A stretch of DNA of 15,917 bases from an uncultured Faecalibacterium sp. (GTDB lineage: Bacteria > Bacillota > Clostridia > Oscillospirales > Ruminococcaceae), in assembly GCA_934561485.1 (NCBI GenBank), contig CAKTGS010000044.1, positions 1-15,917 on the forward strand. Direction: 5' to 3'. The notes beneath the pieces were generated by a model. It did no database searches and was not told where the DNA came from. It worked only from the letters and a program-made list of their open reading frames with translations. A program made the position numbers and the translations under genes. Shown here in pieces: positions 999-15,917 of this stretch. Each line of letters opens with the position of its first letter. Position 1 is the stretch's first letter.

Positions 999-2441
999 TC
1001 AGATATCGTCAATCGGGAACATGGGGCGCATGATGCGCTTGAAGGGAATCAGACGGGTGTCCTGCGGGGTGGCACCATCGGTCAGGGACATCACGCACAG
1101 GGCACCTGCGGCTTTGAGCTCCGGATGGATATAACCCTGCTTGACTACGATGATGTCAAAGTTCTTCCAATCCACGCCGCAGGCGTTCAGCTGGTGCTCC
1201 TCCACAAAGGAGTGGTTGTTGTCGGTGATCGTCAGCACCAGCGGGGTGCCCTCTACGGCAACGGTCACCAGCGGGCCGTAGCTGCCATCCTCGCCGTACA
1301 TATGGGTGCCCTCCTGTGTGCCTTTGTACAGCACCCGCAGGGTCAGCGGCACCGGGGCAGACAGTGCATCAAAGCCCATGCCGACAGAAGTATTCGTCAC
1401 GGTGTCAATGGGCAGGCTGAGCAGAGTATGGCAGAGCTTTGCATCGTGAATGGCGGCAAACAGTACCTTTTTGTGCAAATCCGGCACGGCCAGCACCTGA
1501 CGCAGGATAAAGGTGTTGGCACCCTGAGCACCGCTGGTCACGTTGTCGCCGGAATCGGTGATGAAGGCCGGCTTGTCCGGGCAGTCCAGCGCCATGCGCA
1601 GAGCTTCATCCGGCTGGGCGGTAGTGCCAGTGTAGTGGAATTCGTGACGCTTGCTCCACACAAAAGCGGCCAGCTCATCGGCCTTTTGCTCAGCATAGGT
1701 GCGGTCAAATCCGGTGGCGGGGACCACCACCACGCCGCAGCCTGCCTCCGGGCAGTCGTGCCTCAGGTAGCCTACATGCCAGCTGGCGCTGAGGATGCGG
1801 GGGTCTTTTTCCATCTCGTCCATGTACTGGTTGAAGGAACGCACCGGTTCGTCAACGGAGACGCTCTGCTCGCCGCCCAGAATCAGCGGCAGCTTGCGGT
1901 ATACCGGCGTGATGTTCTGGCGGTGGCGAATCAGCTCGATCAGGGTGCGGCAGGTGCGCTGTACGGTCTGGGCAATGTCGGTGTGGGGAGCTTCGCGGTA
2001 GCTGCGGATGAAGGTGGTGTTCTCCACATACTCCTTGGTCAGGTTGCCGTGGGGGTCGCAGGAGACAGCCAGCGGCATGTAGGAGCCGATGATCTGCCGG
2101 ATGGCGGCTACCAGATGGTGCTCGCCGGAGCCGATCTCTTCCACATAGCTGGCACCGTGCAGATGCAGATAGATGCCGTCCAGATCCTGCAGGTTGTCGC
2201 GCACAGCGTTCAGGATGGTCTGCTCGATGTAGTCAAAGCAGGTCTTTTTCATCACACCGCTGCAGGCGGCGTCTGCACAGATCACGGGCACCAATTCAAT
2301 GTCCGGGTCGTTGAACACGTCTCCCAGCTGCATGTGGCTCAGTGCATCCCGGCCATAGGAGATAGCCACGTTGGGCAGGTCGCACTTCATATCCACGTGT
2401 TCGTTGGCTTCCAGCTGAAATTTTGCAACAAGGATCTTCAT
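999..2441 (-). CDS. M81 family (MlrC-like) metallopeptidase, left-arm copy 1
   Basis: The product is 480 residues, the usual length for family M81 (N-terminal DUF1485/MlrC_N, PF07364; C-terminal MlrC_C, PF07171). The founding member, MlrC, is a zinc enzyme that hydrolyses linearised microcystin; other members have few known substrates. Likely metal and active-site residues are visible: E11 in LEANE, H93 and H95 in HLHGA, D129 and H131 in CDPHGN, and H153 in SYREAPHTD. The C-terminal domain starts near the DSGDN motif. This copy alone has GSGEHH (E107) where the other three have GSGDHH. The ATG at 2441 follows an AGAGGA site on the minus strand and overlaps the stop of the GH1 relic as ATGA. 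It is the second gene of a minus-strand operon with the M81 gene at 2677-4128. No signal peptide is seen, so it should be cytoplasmic. The substrate is unknown. Confidence 0.9.
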   Translation of the reverse strand: MKILVAKFQLEANEHVDMKCDLPNVAISYGRDALSHMQLGDVFNDPDIELVPVICADAACSGVMKKTCFDYIEQTILNAVRDNLQDLDGIYLHLHGASYVEEIGSGEHHLVAAIRQIIGSYMPLAVSCDPHGNLTKEYVENTTFIRSYREAPHTDIAQTVQRTCRTLIELIRHRQNITPVYRKLPLILGGEQSVSVDEPVRSFNQYMDEMEKDPRILSASWHVGYLRHDCPEAGCGVVVVPATGFDRTYAEQKADELAAFVWSKRHEFHYTGTTAQPDEALRMALDCPDKPAFITDSGDNVTSGAQGANTFILRQVLAVPDLHKKVLFAAIHDAKLCHTLLSLPIDTVTNTSVGMGFDALSAPVPLTLRVLYKGTQEGTHMYGEDGSYGPLVTVAVEGTPLVLTITDNNHSFVEEHQLNACGVDWKNFDIIVVKQGYIHPELKAAGALCVMSLTDGATPQDTRLIPFKRIMRPMFPIDDI

Positions 2442-2668
2442 GCTTTTTCCTCTTCTTTCTGATAGATTTTGATTAGGTTCTTGAACCGGTAAGAACTCTT
2501 TTTGGGGGTGCGCTTGTTGTCGTGGTCAAAGTCCACACGCGCAAAGCCGCAGCGCTTCTCGCAGCTGTTGACCCGGCTGTACAGGTCCGTGGTGGTAGAC
2601 CATGCGTAGCAGCTCAGCGCGTTGCAGCCCTCTTTTTTCGGCTCTTTGGTGCCCGGCGCGATCTCCAC
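2438..2668 (-). pseudogene. Relic of a GH1 6-phospho-beta-glycosidase gene
   Basis: Read on the minus strand, this stretch encodes 76 codons matching two separate parts of the intact GH1 protein at 9274-10695. About ten residues equal to 223-232 ([10 protein letters not shown]) are fused directly to residues from about 408 to the C-terminus. The rest, including both catalytic glutamates, is missing. The 3' part is close to 90% identical in DNA by eye to 10498-10670. Key aromatic and glycine residues have decayed: the intact [11 protein letters not shown] segment reads SRVNSCEKRCG here. A 3-base insertion also replaces Met by two Thr. The stop (TGA) overlaps the ATG of the downstream M81 gene. 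It begins 8 bp after the stop of the upstream M81 gene, the same relative place as the intact GH1 gene after its M81 gene. It has no start codon and cannot encode a GH1 enzyme. It accounts for the whole gap between the two M81 genes. Confidence 0.9.
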
Positions 2669-2676
2669 TTGCTTTT

Positions 2677-4128
2677 TTAGATATCGTCCACCGGGAACAT
2701 GGGGCGCATGATGCGCTTGAAGGGCAGGCGGCGGGTATCCTGCAGGGTAGCGCCATCGGTCAGGGACATCACGCACAGCGCGCCCTGCTGCATCGGCTCC
2801 GGGAAGGCGTAGCCGGTTTTGACGACCACTACATCGTAATCCATCCAGTCCACCCCGGCGGCAAGGGCCTGATGCCGTTCCACAAAGGGGTGGTTCGTGT
2901 CGGTGACGATGATGTCAATGGGCAGGCCCTGCACCGATACGGTGGCGCAGCCGCCAAAGTCGCCGTGCTCGGCAAACAGGATGGTGCCCTCCTGGCGGCC
3001 CAGATGCCGCAGGGTCACGGTGAGAGGTACCGGCTCGGTCAGGGCATCCAGTCCCATGCCAAGGGTCAGGGCCAAGGTGTCGCCAATGGCATGGCCGGCC
3101 AGCAGGGTATAGGCGGCGGTGTCCTGAATGGCGGAAAACAGTACCCGCTTGCCCTGCAGGGCTTCGGGTTTGGCCAGCACCTGCCGCAGCACCCAGGTGT
3201 TGGCACCCATGGCACCGCTGGTGGTGTTGTCGCCGGAATCGGTGAGGAAGGCAGGTTTGCCGGTACAGTGCAGCGCGGTCTGCAGGGCCTCGTCCGGCTC
3301 CTGGGTCAGGCCGGTGTAGTGGAACTCATGGCGGCGGTCCCACACAAAGGCAGCCAGCTCATCGGCTTTCTGCTCCGCATAGGGGCGGAACTCGTTGGAA
3401 GAGGGCACTACCACGATGCCGCATCCGGCCACATCGGTATCGTGGCGGATGTAGCCCACATGCCAGCTGGCGCTGAGGATGCGGTCATCCTTTTCCATCT
3501 CATCCATGTACTGATTGATGGAGCGCACCGGCTCATCGGCGGAGACGCTTTGCTCACCGCCCAGAATCAGCGGCAGCTTGCGGTACACCGGGGTGATATT
3601 GCGGCGATGCTCCAGCAGCTCCAGCAGGTGAGAGCAGACAAGGTGAATCGTCTGCTCCACATCGGTATGGGGCGATTCACGGTAGCTGCGGATGAGGGTA
3701 GTACCCTCCACATATTCCTTGCACAGGTTGCCGTGGGGGTCGCATACCACAGCAATGGGCATGTAAGGGCCCACGATGCGGCGTACTTCCTTTAAGATAT
3801 GGTGGTCGCCGGAGCCGATGCCCTCCACCTCACTGGCACCGTGCAGGTGCAGGTAAATGCCGTCCAGCTCAGAAAGATGATCCCGCACGGTCTGCAGGAT
3901 GGTGGACTCAATGTAATCAAAGGCGGTGCGCTTCATCACGCCATTGGAAGCTGCATTGGCGTCCAGTGCCGGTACAAGGGTCACATCGGGGCGGTCAAAC
4001 ACATCCCCCAGCTGCAGGTGTGCAATGCAGTCCTGCCCGAAGTGCAGGCTGACATCATTCAGATCGCACTTTTTGGGGATGTTCTCGTTGGCCTCCAGAA
4101 TGAAGCGTGCAACAAGGATATGAAACAT
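2677..4128 (-). CDS. M81 family (MlrC-like) metallopeptidase, left-arm copy 2
   Basis: The product is 483 residues when started at the ATG at 4128, which has an excellent AGGAGG site (complement of 4137-4142) eight bases upstream. A longer frame from 4158 has no such site. Probable zinc and catalytic residues are E12, H94/H96 in HLHGA, D108-H109-H110 in GSGDHH, D130/H132 in CDPHGN, and H154 in SYRESPHTD. The DSGDNTTSG motif marks the C-terminal MlrC_C domain. It is predicted to be a cytoplasmic zinc hydrolase acting on an amide or peptide bond; the substrate is unknown. It is the first gene of the minus-strand operon under the promoter at 4182-4210, and is divergent from the GntR gene. Its last 24 residues (from [11 protein letters not shown]) are identical to those of the right-arm copy at 7787-9232. 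The last 60 codon-region bases before the stop differ by only one or two changes, whereas its N-terminus is closer to the 999-2441 copy. Confidence 0.9.
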   Translation of the reverse strand: MFHILVARFILEANENIPKKCDLNDVSLHFGQDCIAHLQLGDVFDRPDVTLVPALDANAASNGVMKRTAFDYIESTILQTVRDHLSELDGIYLHLHGASEVEGIGSGDHHILKEVRRIVGPYMPIAVVCDPHGNLCKEYVEGTTLIRSYRESPHTDVEQTIHLVCSHLLELLEHRRNITPVYRKLPLILGGEQSVSADEPVRSINQYMDEMEKDDRILSASWHVGYIRHDTDVAGCGIVVVPSSNEFRPYAEQKADELAAFVWDRRHEFHYTGLTQEPDEALQTALHCTGKPAFLTDSGDNTTSGAMGANTWVLRQVLAKPEALQGKRVLFSAIQDTAAYTLLAGHAIGDTLALTLGMGLDALTEPVPLTVTLRHLGRQEGTILFAEHGDFGGCATVSVQGLPIDIIVTDTNHPFVERHQALAAGVDWMDYDVVVVKTGYAFPEPMQQGALCVMSLTDGATLQDTRRLPFKRIMRPMFPVDDI

Positions 4129-4313: not shown

Positions 4314-5069
4314 ATGCTGGTGCCGGACAGCGCGACCCCGCTTTATCTGCAGCTGAAAGAGATCCTGCGGCAGGAGATCCTTTCCGGCAGCCGCCGGGAG
4401 GGCGACAAGCTTTCCACTGAGAACGAACTGGTGGAACAATATAAGGTAAGCCGCATCACGGTGCGGCGTGCCGTGGAGGAGCTGTGCAAGGAAGGACTGG
4501 TGGTGCGCCACCCGGGCAAGGGCACTTTTGTGACCGGGGTGGTGATGCGCAATGACCTGAATGAGCCACGCGGCTGGACCGAAAATGCCATCGCCAACGG
4601 GTACAGGCCCTCCACTGTGTGCACAGAGCTGGGCATGGTGCCCGGCGCCGAGGTGTGCCGTCTGTTCGAGCTGAAGCAGGGTGAGAAACGCTACTGCCGT
4701 GCCCGGCGGGTGCGTGCACTGAACGGCAAGCCCGCTGTGTATGAGATCGACTACTTTCCGCCGCAGGATGCGGAGTTCTTGACAAAAGAGCTGCTGAACG
4801 GGTCGGTGTTCCGGCTGCTGCGGCAGTGGAAAAAGCTGCGGGTCATCCGGGAAAAGGAGACCATCATCCGGGTGCGGTATGCCGATGCGGAAACGGCGGC
4901 GGCACTGGGCCTTGCCAAGGGTCGGCCGGTGGTGTACACCCGTACCTGCTATCTGGACGGCAAAGACCGGGTGGTGCTGCTGAACGAGCAATACATTGAC
5001 AGTGAACGTTATATGATCCGCACCGGCGGGCACGAGCTGCGGCTGGACGAAGCGGAAGAAAACGGGTAA
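4314..5069 (+). CDS. GntR family (HutC/UTRA) transcriptional regulator
   Basis: The product is 251 residues, the normal length for the HutC/FarR subfamily. Residues 7-73 form the GntR winged helix: PLYLQLKEILRQEI opens the domain, the recognition helix is in SRITVRRAVEEL (46-57), and the wing ends at GKGTFV (68-73). Residues from about 95 to 240 form the UTRA effector-binding domain, with the typical ending of a strand containing VYTRTCYLDG followed by E-QYIDSERY. In this subfamily the effector is often a sugar phosphate or small metabolite, and binding releases DNA. The ATG at 4314 has a GGAGG site at 4300-4304. It is divergent from the left-arm M81 operon and leads the DeoR gene by 63 bp, so it may control the left operon, itself, or the PTS operon. 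The effector cannot be read from the sequence. Confidence 0.92.
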   Translation: MLVPDSATPLYLQLKEILRQEILSGSRREGDKLSTENELVEQYKVSRITVRRAVEELCKEGLVVRHPGKGTFVTGVVMRNDLNEPRGWTENAIANGYRPSTVCTELGMVPGAEVCRLFELKQGEKRYCRARRVRALNGKPAVYEIDYFPPQDAEFLTKELLNGSVFRLLRQWKKLRVIREKETIIRVRYADAETAAALGLAKGRPVVYTRTCYLDGKDRVVLLNEQYIDSERYMIRTGGHELRLDEAEENG

Positions 5070-5132: not shown

Positions 5133-5894
5133 ATGAACGCGATCGAACGAAAACGCTATATTCTGGGCGAGCTGCAGCGCAACGGCAGCGTGGTGATCAC
5201 TGACCTGGCGGAACGTATTCAGGTGTCCTCCATGACCATCCGGCGGGATCTGAATGCGATGGCTGAGGATGGCATGGTCACGCTGGAACACGGCGGTGCG
5301 GTGCTGAATAACGGCTCATTGTTTGAGTGCAATATCAGCTTTAAAAATGAGATCAATGTGGCCGAAAAGCGGCGCATCGCAGCCAAGTGTCTGGAGTATA
5401 TCAACGAGGGCGACTCTGTTTTTCTGGACGCGGGTACGACCCCCAACGAACTGGCGGCACTGCTGCGCAGCAAGCGCAACATCAGCGTACTGACCCACTC
5501 GCTGCTGGTGGCCAATACGACCGCCACCATGCGGAATATCAAGCTTATCATGTGCCCAGGCGAGTTCCGTGAGAATTCTATGGCCTTTCTGGGCCCGCTG
5601 ACCGATGACTTTATCCAGCAGTTCCAGATCGACACCCTGTTCCTCTCCTTGGAGGGCATTGATCTGCGCGATGGCCTCTCGGTGGTGGACGTGCAGGATG
5701 GACACAGCAAAACAGTGCTGGTGAAAAAAGCCAAGCGGGTGATCTGCATGGCCGATCACAGCAAGTTCAACAAGTCGTTCTTCTACAAGATCGCGCCCAT
5801 TGCGGATGTGGACCTGGTGGTCGCGGACGATGGTCTGGACGAGGCCACCCAGGAACTGTTCCGGCAGAACAACATCCCGCTGGTGCTGGCCTGA
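5133..5894 (+). CDS. DeoR family transcriptional regulator
   Basis: The product is 253 residues, the usual DeoR length. The N-terminal winged helix (residues 3-57) contains the family signature around the second helix (VSSMTIRRDLNAM, 31-43) and the wing VTLEHGGAVL. The C-terminal DeoRC sensor domain (about 75-235) has the phosphosugar-binding FLDAGTT motif at 98-103, and later SLEGID and MADHSKF, both typical. These proteins usually repress sugar PTS and catabolic operons and respond to a phosphorylated sugar. The ATG at 5133 follows GAGGAA at 5122-5127. The gene is co-directional with the GntR gene and followed by a terminator. It lies directly upstream of the PTS operon, whose promoter region carries repeated RTAACA boxes that could be its binding sites. 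Family is certain; the target is inferred from position. Confidence 0.93.
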   Translation: MNAIERKRYILGELQRNGSVVITDLAERIQVSSMTIRRDLNAMAEDGMVTLEHGGAVLNNGSLFECNISFKNEINVAEKRRIAAKCLEYINEGDSVFLDAGTTPNELAALLRSKRNISVLTHSLLVANTTATMRNIKLIMCPGEFRENSMAFLGPLTDDFIQQFQIDTLFLSLEGIDLRDGLSVVDVQDGHSKTVLVKKAKRVICMADHSKFNKSFFYKIAPIADVDLVVADDGLDEATQELFRQNNIPLVLA

Positions 5895-6273: not shown

Positions 6274-7656
6274 ATGGGCAAATATACAAAGATGTCCCAG
6301 GAAGTCCTGGAGAAGGTCGGCGGACTGAGCAACATCACCTTCGTTGAGCGCTGTGCAACACGGCTGCGCATCCATTACGCCAGCAAGTCCAAGGTGGATG
6401 TGGAAGCCATCAAGGGCATTGAACATGTCGTGGGCGTTGTGGACAAGACCGGCCAGGTGCAGGTCATCATCGGACCGGAAGTCAACGATGCGTTCAACGA
6501 TTTCCTGGAGGTTTCCGGCTGGAAACCCACCGATGACCGTCCCACGGTCGTGGAGGAAGAGCCTGAAAAGAAGGGCTTTATGTACTGGGTCACGAAGTTC
6601 GGTAATTTCAGCGCAGCTGTCTTTATGCCGATCGTACCCGCTCTGATCACCGGCGGCCTGATCCTTGCCATCAAGAACCTGCTGGTCAACTACCTTGGCA
6701 TGAGCACCGACAGCGGCACCGCAAAGGTCTGCCTGGCTATCTTCAGCGCCGGCTTCTCCATGCTGCCCGTCTGGATCGGCTACACCATGGCCAACAAGCT
6801 CAAGATGGAGCCTATCATGGGCGCGTTCCTGGGCGCTGTCCTCGTCAGCAGCTCCATCAGCGGCGTTGAGGGTCTGGATTTCTTCGGCATCCCCATCCCC
6901 ACCGTGGAATACACCTCCAGCGTGCTGCCCATCGTCATGGGCATCATCCTGATGTACTGGGTGGATAAGCTGCTCAAAAAGATCATCCCCGAGATGGTGC
7001 GCTACTTCTTAAAGCCGCTGCTCACCATGTTGATCGTTGTTCCCATTACGCTGATCGTCCTCGGACCCATCGGCACCGAGCTCAGCGGTGTGGTCGGCAA
7101 TGCTCTTCAGGCATTCTTTAGCGCAGCAAGTGTGATTGCAACTCCTGTCTGCTCTGTTATCTACCCCTATCTGGTCATGCTGGGCCTGGACAAGGCCATC
7201 ACTCCCATCATGGTGGAAGGCATCTCCAGCATCGGTTACGACCTGGTTGTTATGCCGATGGGCTTTATCTCCAACCTGGCAGTCGGCGGCAGCGCACTGG
7301 CTGTTGCCATGCACCTCAAGGATAAGGGCCGCAAGGGCATGATCGCTTCCTTCGGTGTTACCGCACTGTGCGGCGTTACCGAGCCTGCTTTCTACGGCTC
7401 CCTGATCATGCGTCCCCGTGTGCTGGTGGGCACTGCCATCGGCGCTGCAGCCGGCGGTCTGATCGCAGGCATCTTCCAGCTGAAGAACTACGTTGTGGGC
7501 GGCTGCCCGGGCTTCCTGTCCCTGCTGTTCTTCCTGCCTTCTGACGGTTCCATGGGCAACATGATCGTGGCGCTGGCCTCCGGCATCGTGACCGTGGTCG
7601 TGGCGTTCATCGCCTGCACCGTCATCCTCAAAAAGGCATACAAAGAGGACGTCTGA
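6274..7656 (+). CDS. PTS transporter EIIBC, glucose/beta-glucoside superfamily
   Basis: The product is 460 residues with an N-terminal EIIB domain (about 1-90) and a membrane EIIC domain (about 108-455). C27 in ERCATRLRI is the expected phosphorylated cysteine of the C-TRLR motif. EIIC shows around ten hydrophobic segments and the conserved GVTEPAFYG motif at 367-375, whose Glu is part of the sugar site. No EIIA domain is present, so phosphate must come from an EIIA encoded elsewhere. The role is uptake and 6-phosphorylation of a sugar, most likely a beta-glycoside because a phospho-beta-glycosidase lies in the same operon. The ATG at 6274 has a strong GGGAGG site nine bases upstream. It is the first gene of the operon, behind the promoter at 6094-6121. 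A linker of charged residues (EEEPEKK, near 93-99) joins the domains. A trehalose- or N-acetylmuramate-type specificity cannot be excluded. Confidence 0.92.
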   Translation: MGKYTKMSQEVLEKVGGLSNITFVERCATRLRIHYASKSKVDVEAIKGIEHVVGVVDKTGQVQVIIGPEVNDAFNDFLEVSGWKPTDDRPTVVEEEPEKKGFMYWVTKFGNFSAAVFMPIVPALITGGLILAIKNLLVNYLGMSTDSGTAKVCLAIFSAGFSMLPVWIGYTMANKLKMEPIMGAFLGAVLVSSSISGVEGLDFFGIPIPTVEYTSSVLPIVMGIILMYWVDKLLKKIIPEMVRYFLKPLLTMLIVVPITLIVLGPIGTELSGVVGNALQAFFSAASVIATPVCSVIYPYLVMLGLDKAITPIMVEGISSIGYDLVVMPMGFISNLAVGGSALAVAMHLKDKGRKGMIASFGVTALCGVTEPAFYGSLIMRPRVLVGTAIGAAAGGLIAGIFQLKNYVVGGCPGFLSLLFFLPSDGSMGNMIVALASGIVTVVVAFIACTVILKKAYKEDV

Positions 7657-7786: not shown

Positions 7787-10695
<2,909 letters not shown>

Positions 10696-10696
10696 C

Positions 10697-11812
10697 ATGG
10701 AAGCCACAGGCCAAGGTTCCCCCAAAAAGCCGGGCTGCATCCGCCATGGCATGGACGTGGTGCTGGACTTTATTGCCGGCTGTGTTTCGCCGGTGATCCC
10801 GGTGCTGCTGGCATCCGGCCTGATCGCTGCGGTGCTCAGTGTCTGCGTGAACTTTTTTGGCATGGACACCGGCAGCGGCACCGCCGTGGTGCTTAGCGCG
10901 GTTAAGGATGCGGGATTCTACTTCCTGCCCATTTTTCTGGGCTTTTCCACCGGAAACAAGCTGGGCATCAACGGCTATCTGGGTGCGCTGCTGGGCGGTG
11001 TGCTGGTGTACAGCACCATCAACGGGGCACAGGGACTCAGCTTTCTGGGGCTGGCCATCTACCCCACCACTTACAACTCCACCGTGATCCCGGTGATCCT
11101 GGGCGTGCTGTTTGAGGCAGCTGTATATAAGCTGCTGGACAAGGTGCTGCCTGGCACGGTCAAACCGTTTCTGCTGCCGCTGCTCACCGTGCTGGCGGCG
11201 GTGCCGGTCACTCTGCTGTTTCTGGGCCCTCTGGGTACCGTGCTCAGCGGATGGCTTACCGGCGGCGTGATGTGGGTGAGCGATACCTTTGGTGCCTGGG
11301 CCGTGGGCCTGTACGCTATGATCAATCCGGTGTGCGTGATGTTCGGTCTGGACAAGGCCATCACGCCGCCTATCCTCACATCCATTGCCGCCAATGGTTA
11401 CGAGACGCTGTTCCTTCCGGGCAGTGTGGCATCCAATACCGCTGTGGGCGGTGCGGCATTGGCCGTGTGGTTCAAAAGCCGGAACGCCAAACTCAAAAAT
11501 ACGGCGGGCCCGGCGGGTACCACCGCGATCCTGGGCATCACGGAACCGGCACTGTTCGGCGTGTGTGTGCCTTATAAGCGCCCGCTGGCTGCGGCCATGC
11601 TGGGCGGCGGAATCGGCGGACTGTTCGGCGGCTTTGTGCAGCTCAAGCAGTATGCAATCATCACCCCGGGATTGTGTGCCCTGCCGGGATACATCGGCCC
11701 GGACGGCAGCCTGACCAATCTGCTGCTGGCACTGGCCACCATCTGCATTTCGGTAAGCAGCGCGTTTGTTCTGACTCTGTTGTTCTCCGCAAAGCAGACT
11801 TATGAAAGCTGA
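10697..11812 (+). CDS. Stand-alone PTS EIIC membrane subunit
   Basis: The product is 371 residues and consists of an EIIC domain only. After a short hydrophilic start (MEATGQGSPKKPG) come about ten hydrophobic segments. The motif GITEPALFG at 280-288 is the sugar-site Glu-Pro motif. It is clearly paralogous to the EIIC half of the EIIBC protein: for example both have GM-T-SGTA, then NKL, LGPxGT-LSG and GLDKAITP. No EIIB or EIIA domain is present, so it presumably needs the EIIB of the 6274-7656 protein (or another) and an external EIIA. An AGGAGA site lies within the end of GH1, and the ATG follows the GH1 TAA after a single base, indicating translational coupling. It might widen substrate range or form a mixed transporter with EIIBC. 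It is missing from the left arm. Confidence 0.88.
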   Translation: MEATGQGSPKKPGCIRHGMDVVLDFIAGCVSPVIPVLLASGLIAAVLSVCVNFFGMDTGSGTAVVLSAVKDAGFYFLPIFLGFSTGNKLGINGYLGALLGGVLVYSTINGAQGLSFLGLAIYPTTYNSTVIPVILGVLFEAAVYKLLDKVLPGTVKPFLLPLLTVLAAVPVTLLFLGPLGTVLSGWLTGGVMWVSDTFGAWAVGLYAMINPVCVMFGLDKAITPPILTSIAANGYETLFLPGSVASNTAVGGAALAVWFKSRNAKLKNTAGPAGTTAILGITEPALFGVCVPYKRPLAAAMLGGGIGGLFGGFVQLKQYAIITPGLCALPGYIGPDGSLTNLLLALATICISVSSAFVLTLLFSAKQTYES

Positions 11813-11931: not shown

Positions 11932-13374
11932 ATGAAGATCCTGGTTGGCGAATTTATCACGGAATCCAATGCGAACATCCCGCAGAAATGCGAGATCAGC
12001 AATTACAAGATGCTTTTTGGTGATGACTGCATTCAGGCACTGCATGTGGCGGATGTGTTTGAGCAGGCCGGTTTTGAGCTGATCCCCTCGGTGGTGGCAG
12101 ATGCCGGTGCCGCGGGTGTGATCAAAAAAGACACCTTTGATTACATCGAATCCTGCTTCGTGCGCACGGTCAAAGAGCACATCCACGAGATCGATGGAAT
12201 GTTCTTGATGCTGCACGGTGCCAGCGAGGTGGAGGGCATCGGCTCCGGCGACCACCACATCCTGGCCGAGATCCGCAAGGTGGTAGGCCCGTATCTGCCC
12301 ATCTTTGTGGTGTGCGACCCCCACGGCAACCTGTGCAAGGAGTATGCCGAGGCTACGACCCTGATCCGCAGCTATCGCGAGTCGCCCCACACCGACAGCA
12401 TTGACACCATGCGTAAAGTAGCCGCCATGCTGTGCGACTTTATGAACGACCGCCAGAACATCCACTCGGTGTACCGCAAGCTGCCGCTGATCCTGGGCGG
12501 CGAGCAGAGCGTTTCCGGTGACGAGCCGGTGCGCTCCATCAACGAGTATATGGACAAGCTGGAACAGGACCCCCATATCCGCAGCGTGAGCTGGCATGTG
12601 GGCTATATCCGCCACGACACGCCGGTGGCCGGCTGCGGCATCATCGTGGTGCCCCAGACCGAAGCCGACCTGCACTATGCGGAGGAAGCCGCCGACTGGC
12701 TGGCTGTCTATGTCTGGAACAAACGCCGTGAGTTCCACTACACCGGCCTGACGGCTGCTCCGGACAAGGCTTTGCAGATGGCTTTGGAGTTTGAGGGCAA
12801 GCCTGCTTTCATCACAGACTCCGGCGACAACGTGACCAGCGGTGCCACCGGCTGGAACACCTATATCCTGCGGCAGGTGCTGGCCGAAAAAGATCTGAAA
12901 AAGAAGATCCTGTTTGCCAACATCTGCGACCCCGTTGTCTACCAGAAGCTTGCGCAGCTGGAGATTGGCGCAAAGACCCACCTGCATCTGGGTGTGGACC
13001 ACGATGAGATGTCCCGCCCAGTGGAGCTGGATGTGACGGTGAAGGCAAAGGGCACTCTGCGCGGTTACCTGCATCATCCCCACGATGCCGTGTACGGCTA
13101 CTCGGTGGCGGTATCGGTGGACGGCCTGCCGCTGGATATCAATGTGGCAAGCACCCGTCAGACGATGTGCGAAGAGCATCAGTTCGTGGGTGCCGGGCTG
13201 GACTGGGACGCATACGATGTGATCGTGGTCAAGCAGGGCTATATCTTCCCGGAGCTGAAGGAAAAGGCTGCGTTCTCGGTCATGTCCCTGACGCAGGGCG
13301 CTACCCCGCAGGATACCCGGATCATTCCCTTCAAGCAGATCATGCGTCCCATGTACCCCATTGACGAGATCTGA
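11932..13374 (+). CDS. M81 family (MlrC-like) metallopeptidase, right-arm copy 2
   Basis: The product is 480 residues, full length for M81. E11 in TESNANIP, H95 in MLHGA, D107-H108-H109 in GSGDHH, D129/H131 in CDPHGN and H153 in SYRESPHTD are the likely metal or catalytic residues. M93 replaces the first His of the HLHGA motif found in the other three copies, a difference near the active site. DSGDNVTSG marks the C-terminal domain. The ATG at 11932 has AAAGGAGA nine bases upstream. It is fifth in the PTS operon, 119 bp after EIIC and 50 bp before the M24 gene. Its C-terminus (ATPQDTR-IPFK, ending IDEI) pairs with the left-arm copy at 999-2441, which occupies the mirror position. The paralogues may act on related parts of one substrate or have diverged in specificity; nothing here shows which. 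Confidence 0.9.
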   Translation: MKILVGEFITESNANIPQKCEISNYKMLFGDDCIQALHVADVFEQAGFELIPSVVADAGAAGVIKKDTFDYIESCFVRTVKEHIHEIDGMFLMLHGASEVEGIGSGDHHILAEIRKVVGPYLPIFVVCDPHGNLCKEYAEATTLIRSYRESPHTDSIDTMRKVAAMLCDFMNDRQNIHSVYRKLPLILGGEQSVSGDEPVRSINEYMDKLEQDPHIRSVSWHVGYIRHDTPVAGCGIIVVPQTEADLHYAEEAADWLAVYVWNKRREFHYTGLTAAPDKALQMALEFEGKPAFITDSGDNVTSGATGWNTYILRQVLAEKDLKKKILFANICDPVVYQKLAQLEIGAKTHLHLGVDHDEMSRPVELDVTVKAKGTLRGYLHHPHDAVYGYSVAVSVDGLPLDINVASTRQTMCEEHQFVGAGLDWDAYDVIVVKQGYIFPELKEKAAFSVMSLTQGATPQDTRIIPFKQIMRPMYPIDEI

Positions 13375-13424: not shown

Positions 13425-14813
13425 ATGAAACAGTACGATATCCGCCTGGCTAAGGTGCCGCAGCCGCCCAAGGACTGCACCGGAGAGCCGGTAATGCTGA
13501 CCGATGCCACCATTCAGGAGCGCCTTGACAAGGTGCTGCAGGGCATGAAGGCCCACGGTTTTGAGCAGCTGGTAGTGTACGGCGATGCCGAGCACTGCGG
13601 CAATTTCCAGTATCTGATGGGCTATTTCACCCGCTTTGAAGAGTCGCTGCTGGTGCTGGATGCCAACGGTACTGCTCACTTTGTGCTGGGCAACGAGAAC
13701 CTGAACAAGGCGTCCAAAGCCCGTATCCCGGGGCAGGCCGTGCATGTTTCGCTCTTCTCGCTGCCCAACCAGCCCAACCGTGCCGACAAGCCGCTGCGCA
13801 CCCTGCTGGAGGAGGCAGGCATTGCGCCGGGCCGCCGCATCGGCATTGCAGGCTGGAAGCATTTTACCAGTCCGGTGGAGAACAACGAAAAACTGTTTGA
13901 CATTCCGGCCTTTATTCTGGACGCCATCCGTTCCATTACCGGCGGCGATGAGAACCTGTTCAATGCCGGAGACCTGTTCCTGGGTGAAGGCGGTGCCCGC
14001 ACCACCAACAACGCCAACGAGATCGCCCATTACGAATATGGCGCTGCACTGGCTTCGGACGGTGTGCTGGATGCCATGGATCTTCTGGCTCCCGGTGTGC
14101 CGGAGACTGCACTGGGTGCTCAGCTCAACCGGCAGGGCCAGCACAACAGCATCGTGACCATTGCCGCCAGCGGTCCGCGCTTCATCAAGGGCAATATGTT
14201 CCCCACCCAGAACACGGTCAAGGTGGGCGATACCATTTCGCTGACCGTTGGCTACCCGGGCGGCTCTTCCAGTCGCGCGGCCTATGCAGTGCACGATGCT
14301 TCGGAGCTGCCGCAGGGCGCACAGGACTATGTGGAAAAGGTGGCTGCACCTTATTTTGCCGCTTACACCCGCTGGCTGGAGGAGATCCATGTGGGTATGA
14401 GCGGCGGTGAGATGTTCGATAAGGTGGAAGAGATCCTGCCCCGTGCGACTTACGGCTGGTCGCTCTGCCCGGGCCATCTGGTGGCTGAGGAAGAGTGGCT
14501 CTGCTCCCCGATCTATGAGCACTCCACCGAGGTGCTGCGCAGCGGCATGATGCTGCAGATCGATATAATCCCCTCGGTGCCGGGCTACGGCGGCAGCTGT
14601 GCCGAGAGCACCGTGGTGCTGGCTGACGAAGCGCTGAAGGAGCAGATCCGCCAGCAGTACCCGGAGATGTGGCAGCGGATGCAGGTGCGCCGGGAGTACA
14701 TCATCCAGCAGCTGGGCATCCAACTTTCAGAGGATGTTCTGCCCATGTGCGGCACGGTAGCCTACCTGCGGCCCTACCTGCTGGATAAGGACATGGCCTT
14801 TGTGAGCCGCTGA
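13425..14813 (+). CDS. M24/creatinase-fold protein with altered metal site
   Basis: The product is 462 residues. A creatinase_N-like domain (about 25-175) precedes a pita-bread M24 domain (about 195-430), as in Xaa-Pro peptidases. Standard M24 enzymes bind two metals through Asp, Asp, His, Glu, Glu. Here the first Asp position is T274 (in GDTISLTVG), the second falls in the Ser-rich loop 281-283, and the first Glu is D380 (LQIDIIP). H351 (CPGH) and E394 (GSCAES) remain. It may therefore be a metal-independent hydrolase, as creatinase is, or a non-peptidase member; creatinase cleaves a C-N bond. The ATG at 13425 follows a GAGAGGTG site. It is the last gene of the operon, 50 bp after an M81 gene, and ends at the second repeat and terminator. 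The family is clear, the activity is not. Confidence 0.85.
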   Translation: MKQYDIRLAKVPQPPKDCTGEPVMLTDATIQERLDKVLQGMKAHGFEQLVVYGDAEHCGNFQYLMGYFTRFEESLLVLDANGTAHFVLGNENLNKASKARIPGQAVHVSLFSLPNQPNRADKPLRTLLEEAGIAPGRRIGIAGWKHFTSPVENNEKLFDIPAFILDAIRSITGGDENLFNAGDLFLGEGGARTTNNANEIAHYEYGAALASDGVLDAMDLLAPGVPETALGAQLNRQGQHNSIVTIAASGPRFIKGNMFPTQNTVKVGDTISLTVGYPGGSSSRAAYAVHDASELPQGAQDYVEKVAAPYFAAYTRWLEEIHVGMSGGEMFDKVEEILPRATYGWSLCPGHLVAEEEWLCSPIYEHSTEVLRSGMMLQIDIIPSVPGYGGSCAESTVVLADEALKEQIRQQYPEMWQRMQVRREYIIQQLGIQLSEDVLPMCGTVAYLRPYLLDKDMAFVSR

Positions 14814-14996: not shown

Positions 14997-15917
14997 TTAG
15001 AGCTTCGTTGATTGCTGCGTTGGCAGCTCCACCGCGATGGTTGTGCCCTTGTCTGAGCTTTTCTCCACCCAAACGGAGCCGCCGTGAAGATCAGCAATCT
15101 CCCACACCAGAGAAAGCCCCAGTCCCGCGCCGCCGTACTCGCGGCTGCGGGACTTGTCTACTCGGAAGAAAGGATGAAAAATGCTCCGCTGATACGCATC
15201 CGGGATGCCGCAGCCTGTGTCGGAAACGCAAATGGTGCACTTTTCCTGCTTCTGCGCAAGCTCGACCCACACCGAGCCGCCGGGGCGGTTGTATTTGATG
15301 GCGTTCTCCGTCAGGTTGAAGAGCAGACGGTAGATCAGCGCATCGCTGCCGGTCAGGGCGGCATCGCCCTCTGCTTCCAGTGTGATGTTTCGCTTCTCCG
15401 CCAGCGGCGCAAGATCTGTAAAGATCTCCTCGACCATGGGGGCGAGCTGGATCCGCTCATTCCGCGTCACCTGCCGCAGATTGCTCATCTCCAGCAGGGT
15501 CTTGGTCATCCGGGTCAGCCGCTCCGTCTGCTCCCGCAGAAGGGCGAGAAACTCTGCCGTCTCCGGCTGCGTATCAGGATGCTCTGCGGAAAACAGCTCC
15601 AGCTGCGCCTGCATCAGCGCCAGCGGCGTGCGCAGCTCGTGGGCAGCGTTGCCGGTGAACTGCCGCTGGGCGGTAAAGGCGTTGTTCAGCCGCTCCAGCA
15701 TCTGGTTGAACGAGCGGCTCAGCTGCCGGAACTCCGAAATGGCGTCTTCATCGATCCTCATATCGGCAAGATTGTTCAGCTGCACCTGCTCCACCTGCGA
15801 GGCAAAGCTGCGCAGGGGCTTGAGGGCGCGTCCGCTGACAAAATAGGCGAGGATGCCGCTGAGCAGCGTTACCGCCGCCGTGATGTACCAGTTGGTGGTG
15901 CGGAAGCGCCCCTGCAC
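14997..15917 (-). CDS. Sensor histidine kinase, C-terminal part (cut by window end)
   Basis: The minus-strand frame is open from the window edge to TAA at 14997-14999, giving 306 residues; the N-terminal sensor part lies beyond the window. A membrane helix (about 11-28) is followed by a HAMP domain (about 30-85). The HisKA domain carries the phospho-acceptor H93 in HELRTPL. The ATP-binding domain shows the N box (NLTENAIKY, N205), the G1 box DTGCGIP (D233) and the G2 box GGAGLGLSL (262-270). This is an EnvZ/OmpR-partner class membrane kinase that autophosphorylates and passes phosphate to a response regulator, probably encoded next to it outside the window. It converges on the M24 gene and shares the terminator at 14931-14980. 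Nothing ties it to the PTS/M81 locus. The signal it senses cannot be seen. Confidence 0.93.
   Translation of the reverse strand: MQGRFRTTNWYITAAVTLLSGILAYFVSGRALKPLRSFASQVEQVQLNNLADMRIDEDAISEFRQLSRSFNQMLERLNNAFTAQRQFTGNAAHELRTPLALMQAQLELFSAEHPDTQPETAEFLALLREQTERLTRMTKTLLEMSNLRQVTRNERIQLAPMVEEIFTDLAPLAEKRNITLEAEGDAALTGSDALIYRLLFNLTENAIKYNRPGGSVWVELAQKQEKCTICVSDTGCGIPDAYQRSIFHPFFRVDKSRSREYGGAGLGLSLVWEIADLHGGSVWVEKSSDKGTTIAVELPTQQSTKL

Follow-up and report, generated by a model that had tools for sequence, protein, structure and literature searches.

The question raised by this locus of a probable gut bacterium is what the short stretch between two neighboring genes of the M81 (MlrC-like) metallopeptidase family represents, and whether it records the inverted duplication of a whole gene cluster. 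The window, i.e., the whole stretch of 15,917 nucleotides analyzed here, is organized as two divergent arms. The left arm, encoded on the minus strand, consists of M2 (2677..4128; ATG at 4128, with a GTG frame that reaches 4158), the stretch in question (2438-2673) and M1 (999..2441; PF07364 with an E value of 7.1e-73, PF07171). The right arm, encoded on the plus strand, consists of a GntR/UTRA regulator (4314..5069; PF00392, PF07702), a DeoR-type regulator (5133..5894; PF00455, PF08220), a beta-glucoside-like PTS EIIBC (6274..7656; PF02378, PF00367), M3 (7787..9232), an intact GH1 gene (9274..10695; PF00232, E 2.4e-139), a second PTS EIIC located between GH1 and M4 (10697..11812; PF02378), M4 (11932..13374) and an M24-family gene (13425-14813). 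Both M81 Pfam domains (PF07364 and PF07171) were found in all four M genes, whose products are predicted members of the M81 family; the solved relatives of M2, the only one of the four that was searched, are 3iuu and 7ylq. The best NCBIfam model for the EIIBC was TIGR01995 (beta-glucoside PTS), with a score under the curated cut-off, and the top models for the intact GH1 were 6-phospho-beta-galactosidase and beta-glucosidase, all likewise under their curated cut-offs. The second EIIC displayed no EIIB domain by Pfam.

We confirmed that 2438-2673 is a genuine GH1 remnant, left by a second gene copy besides the intact one nearby. Pairwise alignment of the reverse complement of 2430-2780 to 9120-10720, the check proposed in the preliminary description, revealed DNA similarity beyond chance in two pieces. 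Piece B (2471..2638, minus strand; GH1 residues 408 to approximately 463, with weaker protein similarity continuing to the end) matched 10495-10659 with 150 of 168 identities (89%), 3 gap bases and an E value of 1e-61, and piece A (2634..2673, minus strand; residues 223-232) matched 9934-9974 with 38 of 41 identities (93%; E 3e-12), in agreement with the earlier claim that the gap between the M81 genes encodes two joined GH1 fragments on the opposite strand. At the inner joint between the two pieces, which contains an A-rich stretch, 525 bp (175 codons) of GH1 are absent and the reading frame is preserved, while at the outer joint roughly 700 bp are absent from just past the M81 stop into GH1; one codon is inserted relative to the intact gene. 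The remnant contains an open frame of 76 codons (2438..2668, minus strand; GTG start possible at 2668) whose TGA overlaps the ATG of M1 (ATGA, 2438-2441), and the Pfam Glyco_hydro_1 profile matched this frame (E 5.5e-07, profile positions 395-449). Approximately 66 of the 473 GH1 residues are matched, with residues 1-222 and 233-407 missing, which is too little for a working enzyme. The closest sequence to the remnant was the window's own GH1, with 44 of 56 residues identical (the inserted codon not counted) compared to at most 38 of 56 for 120 GH1 relatives among the matches listed.

The fragment lies directly behind an M81 gene, as had been pointed out, just as the intact GH1 does, and the end of M2 (2673..2780, minus strand) is near-identical to the end of M3 (106 of 108 positions, 98%, compared to 9129-9236). 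This shared order of M81 followed by GH1, the tails that are 98% identical and the GH1 pieces at 89% and 93% are what would be seen if an inverted copy of the right arm (M81-GH1-EIIC-M81) had arisen on the left and had subsequently lost GH1 and EIIC, as the preliminary description proposed. However, DNA identity over the whole genes was 72.8% for M2-M3 and 64.4% for M1-M4, and M1 and M2 turned out to have relatives of their own elsewhere. In M81 trees built from full-length sequences (37 rows) and from the variable parts only (33 rows, without four further rows in which the cutting motif was absent), the four genes fell into four separate clades and the left genes did not group with the right ones. 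M1 grouped with the M1 of Collinsella (support 91/93 for full length and 99/95 for variable parts), M2 with P0121, P0139 and P0140 (100/99), M3 with P0154, P0219, P0235 and the Collinsella M3 (100/100), and M4 with the Collinsella M4 (100/99). A first tree of 63 rows, which joined M2 and M3 (99/98), was set aside; it contained the hybrid row P0137, an M2-like front joined to an M3-like back, and removal of P0137 and 25 other rows yielded the 37-row tree.

The arrangement in Collinsella sp. An2 (L002/L075), where a divergent M1 faces DeoR-EIIBC-M3-GH1-M4-M24, also speaks against copying of the whole arm. This cluster is similar to the window in gene order and in protein identity (52-76% across seven genes, with a syntenic DeoR at 52%), but no M2, GH1 remnant, GntR or second EIIC was seen in it; GntR was also absent among the listed non-overlapping matches in 20 loci (some of them overlapping). 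As the Collinsella M1 occupies the same divergent place, M1 is an older neighbor. With M1 to M4 each placed in a different clade next to genes from other organisms, the left arm does not represent an inverted duplicate. Self-comparison of the window detected no trace of an EIIC in the left arm (E 1e-3), and the gap between GH1 and M4 in Collinsella is only about 100 bp, leaving no room for a second EIIC, so that the supposed EIIC loss on the left is not supported either. Whole-arm duplication was thus rejected on the basis of the M81 trees and the Collinsella synteny, and we attach very little probability to it; what survives of that proposal is the decayed GH1 copy that follows an M81 gene on the opposite strand. 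This corrects the history of the locus: the remnant is real, the arms are not duplicates, and, because duplication did not involve the M81 genes along with GH1, the remnant cannot serve as evidence that M81 was selectively retained.

The explanation that we consider probable is that the stretch is the pseudogene remnant of a second GH1 within an M2-GH1-M1 unit with independent M81 genes, produced by copying between the arms and subsequent deletions. A second GH1 gene would have stood between M2 and M1 in an intact minus-strand unit, flanked by M81 genes that are old independent members of the family and were not derived from those of the right arm. Remnant and right-arm GH1 would share recent ancestry, most simply via exchange at the conserved M81 ends, putatively by gene conversion. 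Inactivation of the left copy would then be due to two deletions, one of about 700 bp from just past the M81 stop into GH1 and one of 525 bp inside GH1, of which the latter would have occurred before the window and P0241 (see below) diverged, and what remains would be drifting. L003, L005 and Holdemania likewise have a GH1 gene after an M81 gene on the same strand, which makes an old M2-GH1-M1 unit plausible; among 12 loci, 31 genomes, 35 genomes and 394 genomes of the order, none was found in which a complete GH1 gene separates M2 from M1. Similar to a bacterial GH1 pseudogene or remnant (PF00232), the stretch is a truncated, internally deleted and apparently drifting copy near an intact paralogue, but unlike an ordinary pseudogene its frame is open, it occurs in a second source and its end overlaps the start of the next gene. 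Overall, we regard it as a fairly ordinary gene remnant that comes with evidence of exchange between the arms.

That evidence was obtained from 44 diagnostic columns at which three relatives of the M3 clade agree on one residue and two relatives of the M2 clade agree on another. Forty of these columns precede residue 446, and the window's M3 has the residue of its own clade at every one of them, whereas all four columns beyond it show the M2-type residue (Fisher p value 7e-6), i.e., M2-type states occur at 4/4 tail columns and 0/40 body columns, the short-tract pattern of gene conversion. Paralogues within a chromosome are generally known to undergo gene conversion, and the likeness lies in an M3 end that carries M2-clade residues over a short stretch; the difference is that it is deduced here from a few diagnostic residues, with neither the event nor strains predating it seen. 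We read the M3 tail as a probable conversion from M2 to M3, a signal derived from four residues in comparison with five relatives and whose direction is not firm. Two of the four tail states (C450 and D462) are also present in M1, and M2 displays M3-type residues at nine of the 40 body columns, which could reflect exchange in the other direction or convergence. At four-fold sites in the body, the window paralogues shared 63-73% compared to 51-56% expected from codon use; synonymous identity was judged weak as proof of conversion, since M2-M3 was just somewhat above the other pairs. The window GH1 was not placed firmly in the GH1 tree and did not group there with GH1 proteins seemingly linked to M3 relatives. 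The GH1 gene may thus have moved from left to right together with the tail, or it may have been copied from right to left, and the donor arm is a matter of inference.

An alternative explanation is that a single event pasted an M3 tail with a GH1 piece, possibly already broken, behind M2, in which case the left GH1 would never have been intact. A near-identical M81 tail followed directly by GH1 pieces is what such an event would leave, and the A-rich stretch at the inner joint also speaks for it. However, the residues of the tail look native to M2, which makes M3 the recipient and thus points in the opposite direction (with the reservation on direction given above), and the remnant covers GH1 practically to its end and meets M1 in the manner of a neighboring gene. 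We therefore consider a one-step paste unlikely and retain the reading of a once intact second GH1.

A search with the 76-aa remnant frame returned five proteins (P0241-P0245). P0241 (76 aa; found on four contigs, the longest of 16,536 bases) was 88% identical to the remnant, with nine residue differences of 76, and shares with it the inner joint and the inserted codon. The inner joint common to the window and P0241 indicates that the inner deletion predates the split of these lineages. The start of P0241 coincides with the remnant's GTG, and the outer joint falls outside the P0241 protein, so that it is not comparable. P0242 (77 aa) resembles the remnant at its start and intact GH1 at its end, and looks like a hybrid of the two; P0243-P0245 end in intact GH1 sequence.

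Compared to the intact GH1, the remnant carries 17 substitutions over 56 codons, 12 of them nonsynonymous. The pairwise dN/dS was 0.56 rather than 1, a value that includes the constrained intact branch and is based on few changes (56 codons). Eleven of the changes hit residues on which the intact GH1 and three outgroup genes, from Collinsella, Holdemania and an Erysipelotrichaceae MAG, agree (alignment read by eye), with W replaced by R twice and Y by C three times, which fits drift. An inner deletion and an insertion that both keep the frame are expected from free drift only part of the time and count against it. The frame is still open in both the window and P0241; approximately 6% (6.15%) of all single changes in the intact GH1 stretch create a stop, so that 17 random changes would leave no stop in about one of three cases, and the open frame is weak evidence that we did not accept as proof of function. 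The remnant is most likely a leftover without enzyme function. Sixteen of the 17 changes (2471-2638) are transitions, and 10 AT-to-GC changes were counted against 6 GC-to-AT changes, although these are few events; AT-to-GC is the less usual direction of change in bacteria.

M2, the remnant and M1 are probably carried on one transcript. A sigma-70-like site (4210-4182; 10 of 12 positions matching) precedes M2, and the region contains four such sites compared to a mean of 1.6 in shuffled sequences. The remnant could have been kept as a short translated cistron that carries ribosomes from M2 to M1 via the ATGA overlap, for which the open frame and its overlap with the M1 start would be suitable and to which P0241, with its frame open despite nine residue differences of 76, lends mild support. 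A GAGG motif that lies 7 bases ahead of the M1 ATG allows, like the overlap, for a role in the translation of M1, but it could serve M1 without any translation of the remnant, while no ribosome-binding motif was seen by eye ahead of the GTG. As the residues of the remnant appear to drift at conserved places and an open frame is not rare when roughly 6% of single changes make a stop, we consider a translated link improbable and prefer a drifting leftover of the second GH1.

Using 40-column blocks, an identity of at least 85% and an 8-point lead, the 120 M81 relatives of M2 among the matches listed were divided into 32 hybrids of window-type paralogues, 7 pure proteins and 81 that belonged to other lineages or were partial. 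The 32 hybrids (among P0126-P0186, P0233 and P0237) combined M2/M3, M3/M1, M4/M3, M4/M2 and others, some with more than one switch, and about three quarters switched near the conserved middle (block labels read by eye), a region in which M2 and M3 are identical over runs of 35 and 45 bases. Member counts ranged from 1 to 56 for the hybrids and from 1 to 1518 for the 7 pure proteins (P0121, 993; P0154, 1518; P0167, 782). Assembly error is a cheaper explanation of these hybrids than real recombination between the arms. A far-reaching interpretation would take the inverted M81 arms as an active recombination system in which exchanges among M1-M4 generate hybrid M81 proteins, exchanges within inverted pairs also flip the regulators lying between them, and GH1 copies travel from arm to arm as passengers, with the remnant as a translated link between M2 and M1; the 32 hybrids among the 120 proteins listed and P0242 can be cited in its favor, but both could stem from misassembly at shared stretches, and we consider this interpretation improbable. 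If exchange between the arms is confirmed, the locus would be handy for studying exchange between inverted paralogues and would call for caution with hybrid M81 sequences from metagenome collections. Three M2-type proteins of 445 aa (P0123, P0124 and P0125) have internal in-frame gaps, and an M81 gene of Faecalibacterium longum (L012, 9158-10551) gave two adjoining matches (query residues 15-226 and 227-480), perhaps due to a frameshift.

In wider searches, plasmids gave no relative or nothing useful, scans of viral contigs gave no relative, Rfam and tRNA searches gave nothing useful, two other genomes of the genus of Collinsella An2 gave short matches only, and among the 394 genomes of the order short weak matches were found in 11. 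A literature search restricted to titles and the openings of abstracts returned nothing on this locus. In the phage collection, one record matched, and only in the histidine kinase stretch: positions 15022-15915 are 88% identical to part of ‘Bacteriophage sp.’ MT836032.1, which stems from human fecal samples. Two prokaryote genomes that belong to one genus (G417 and G386) also carry this histidine kinase gene, at 87-88% identity, whereas the M1-M2 DNA gave no match in the former and one 31-base match in the latter. Its occurrence in two prokaryote genomes suggests that MT836032.1 may hold bacterial DNA.
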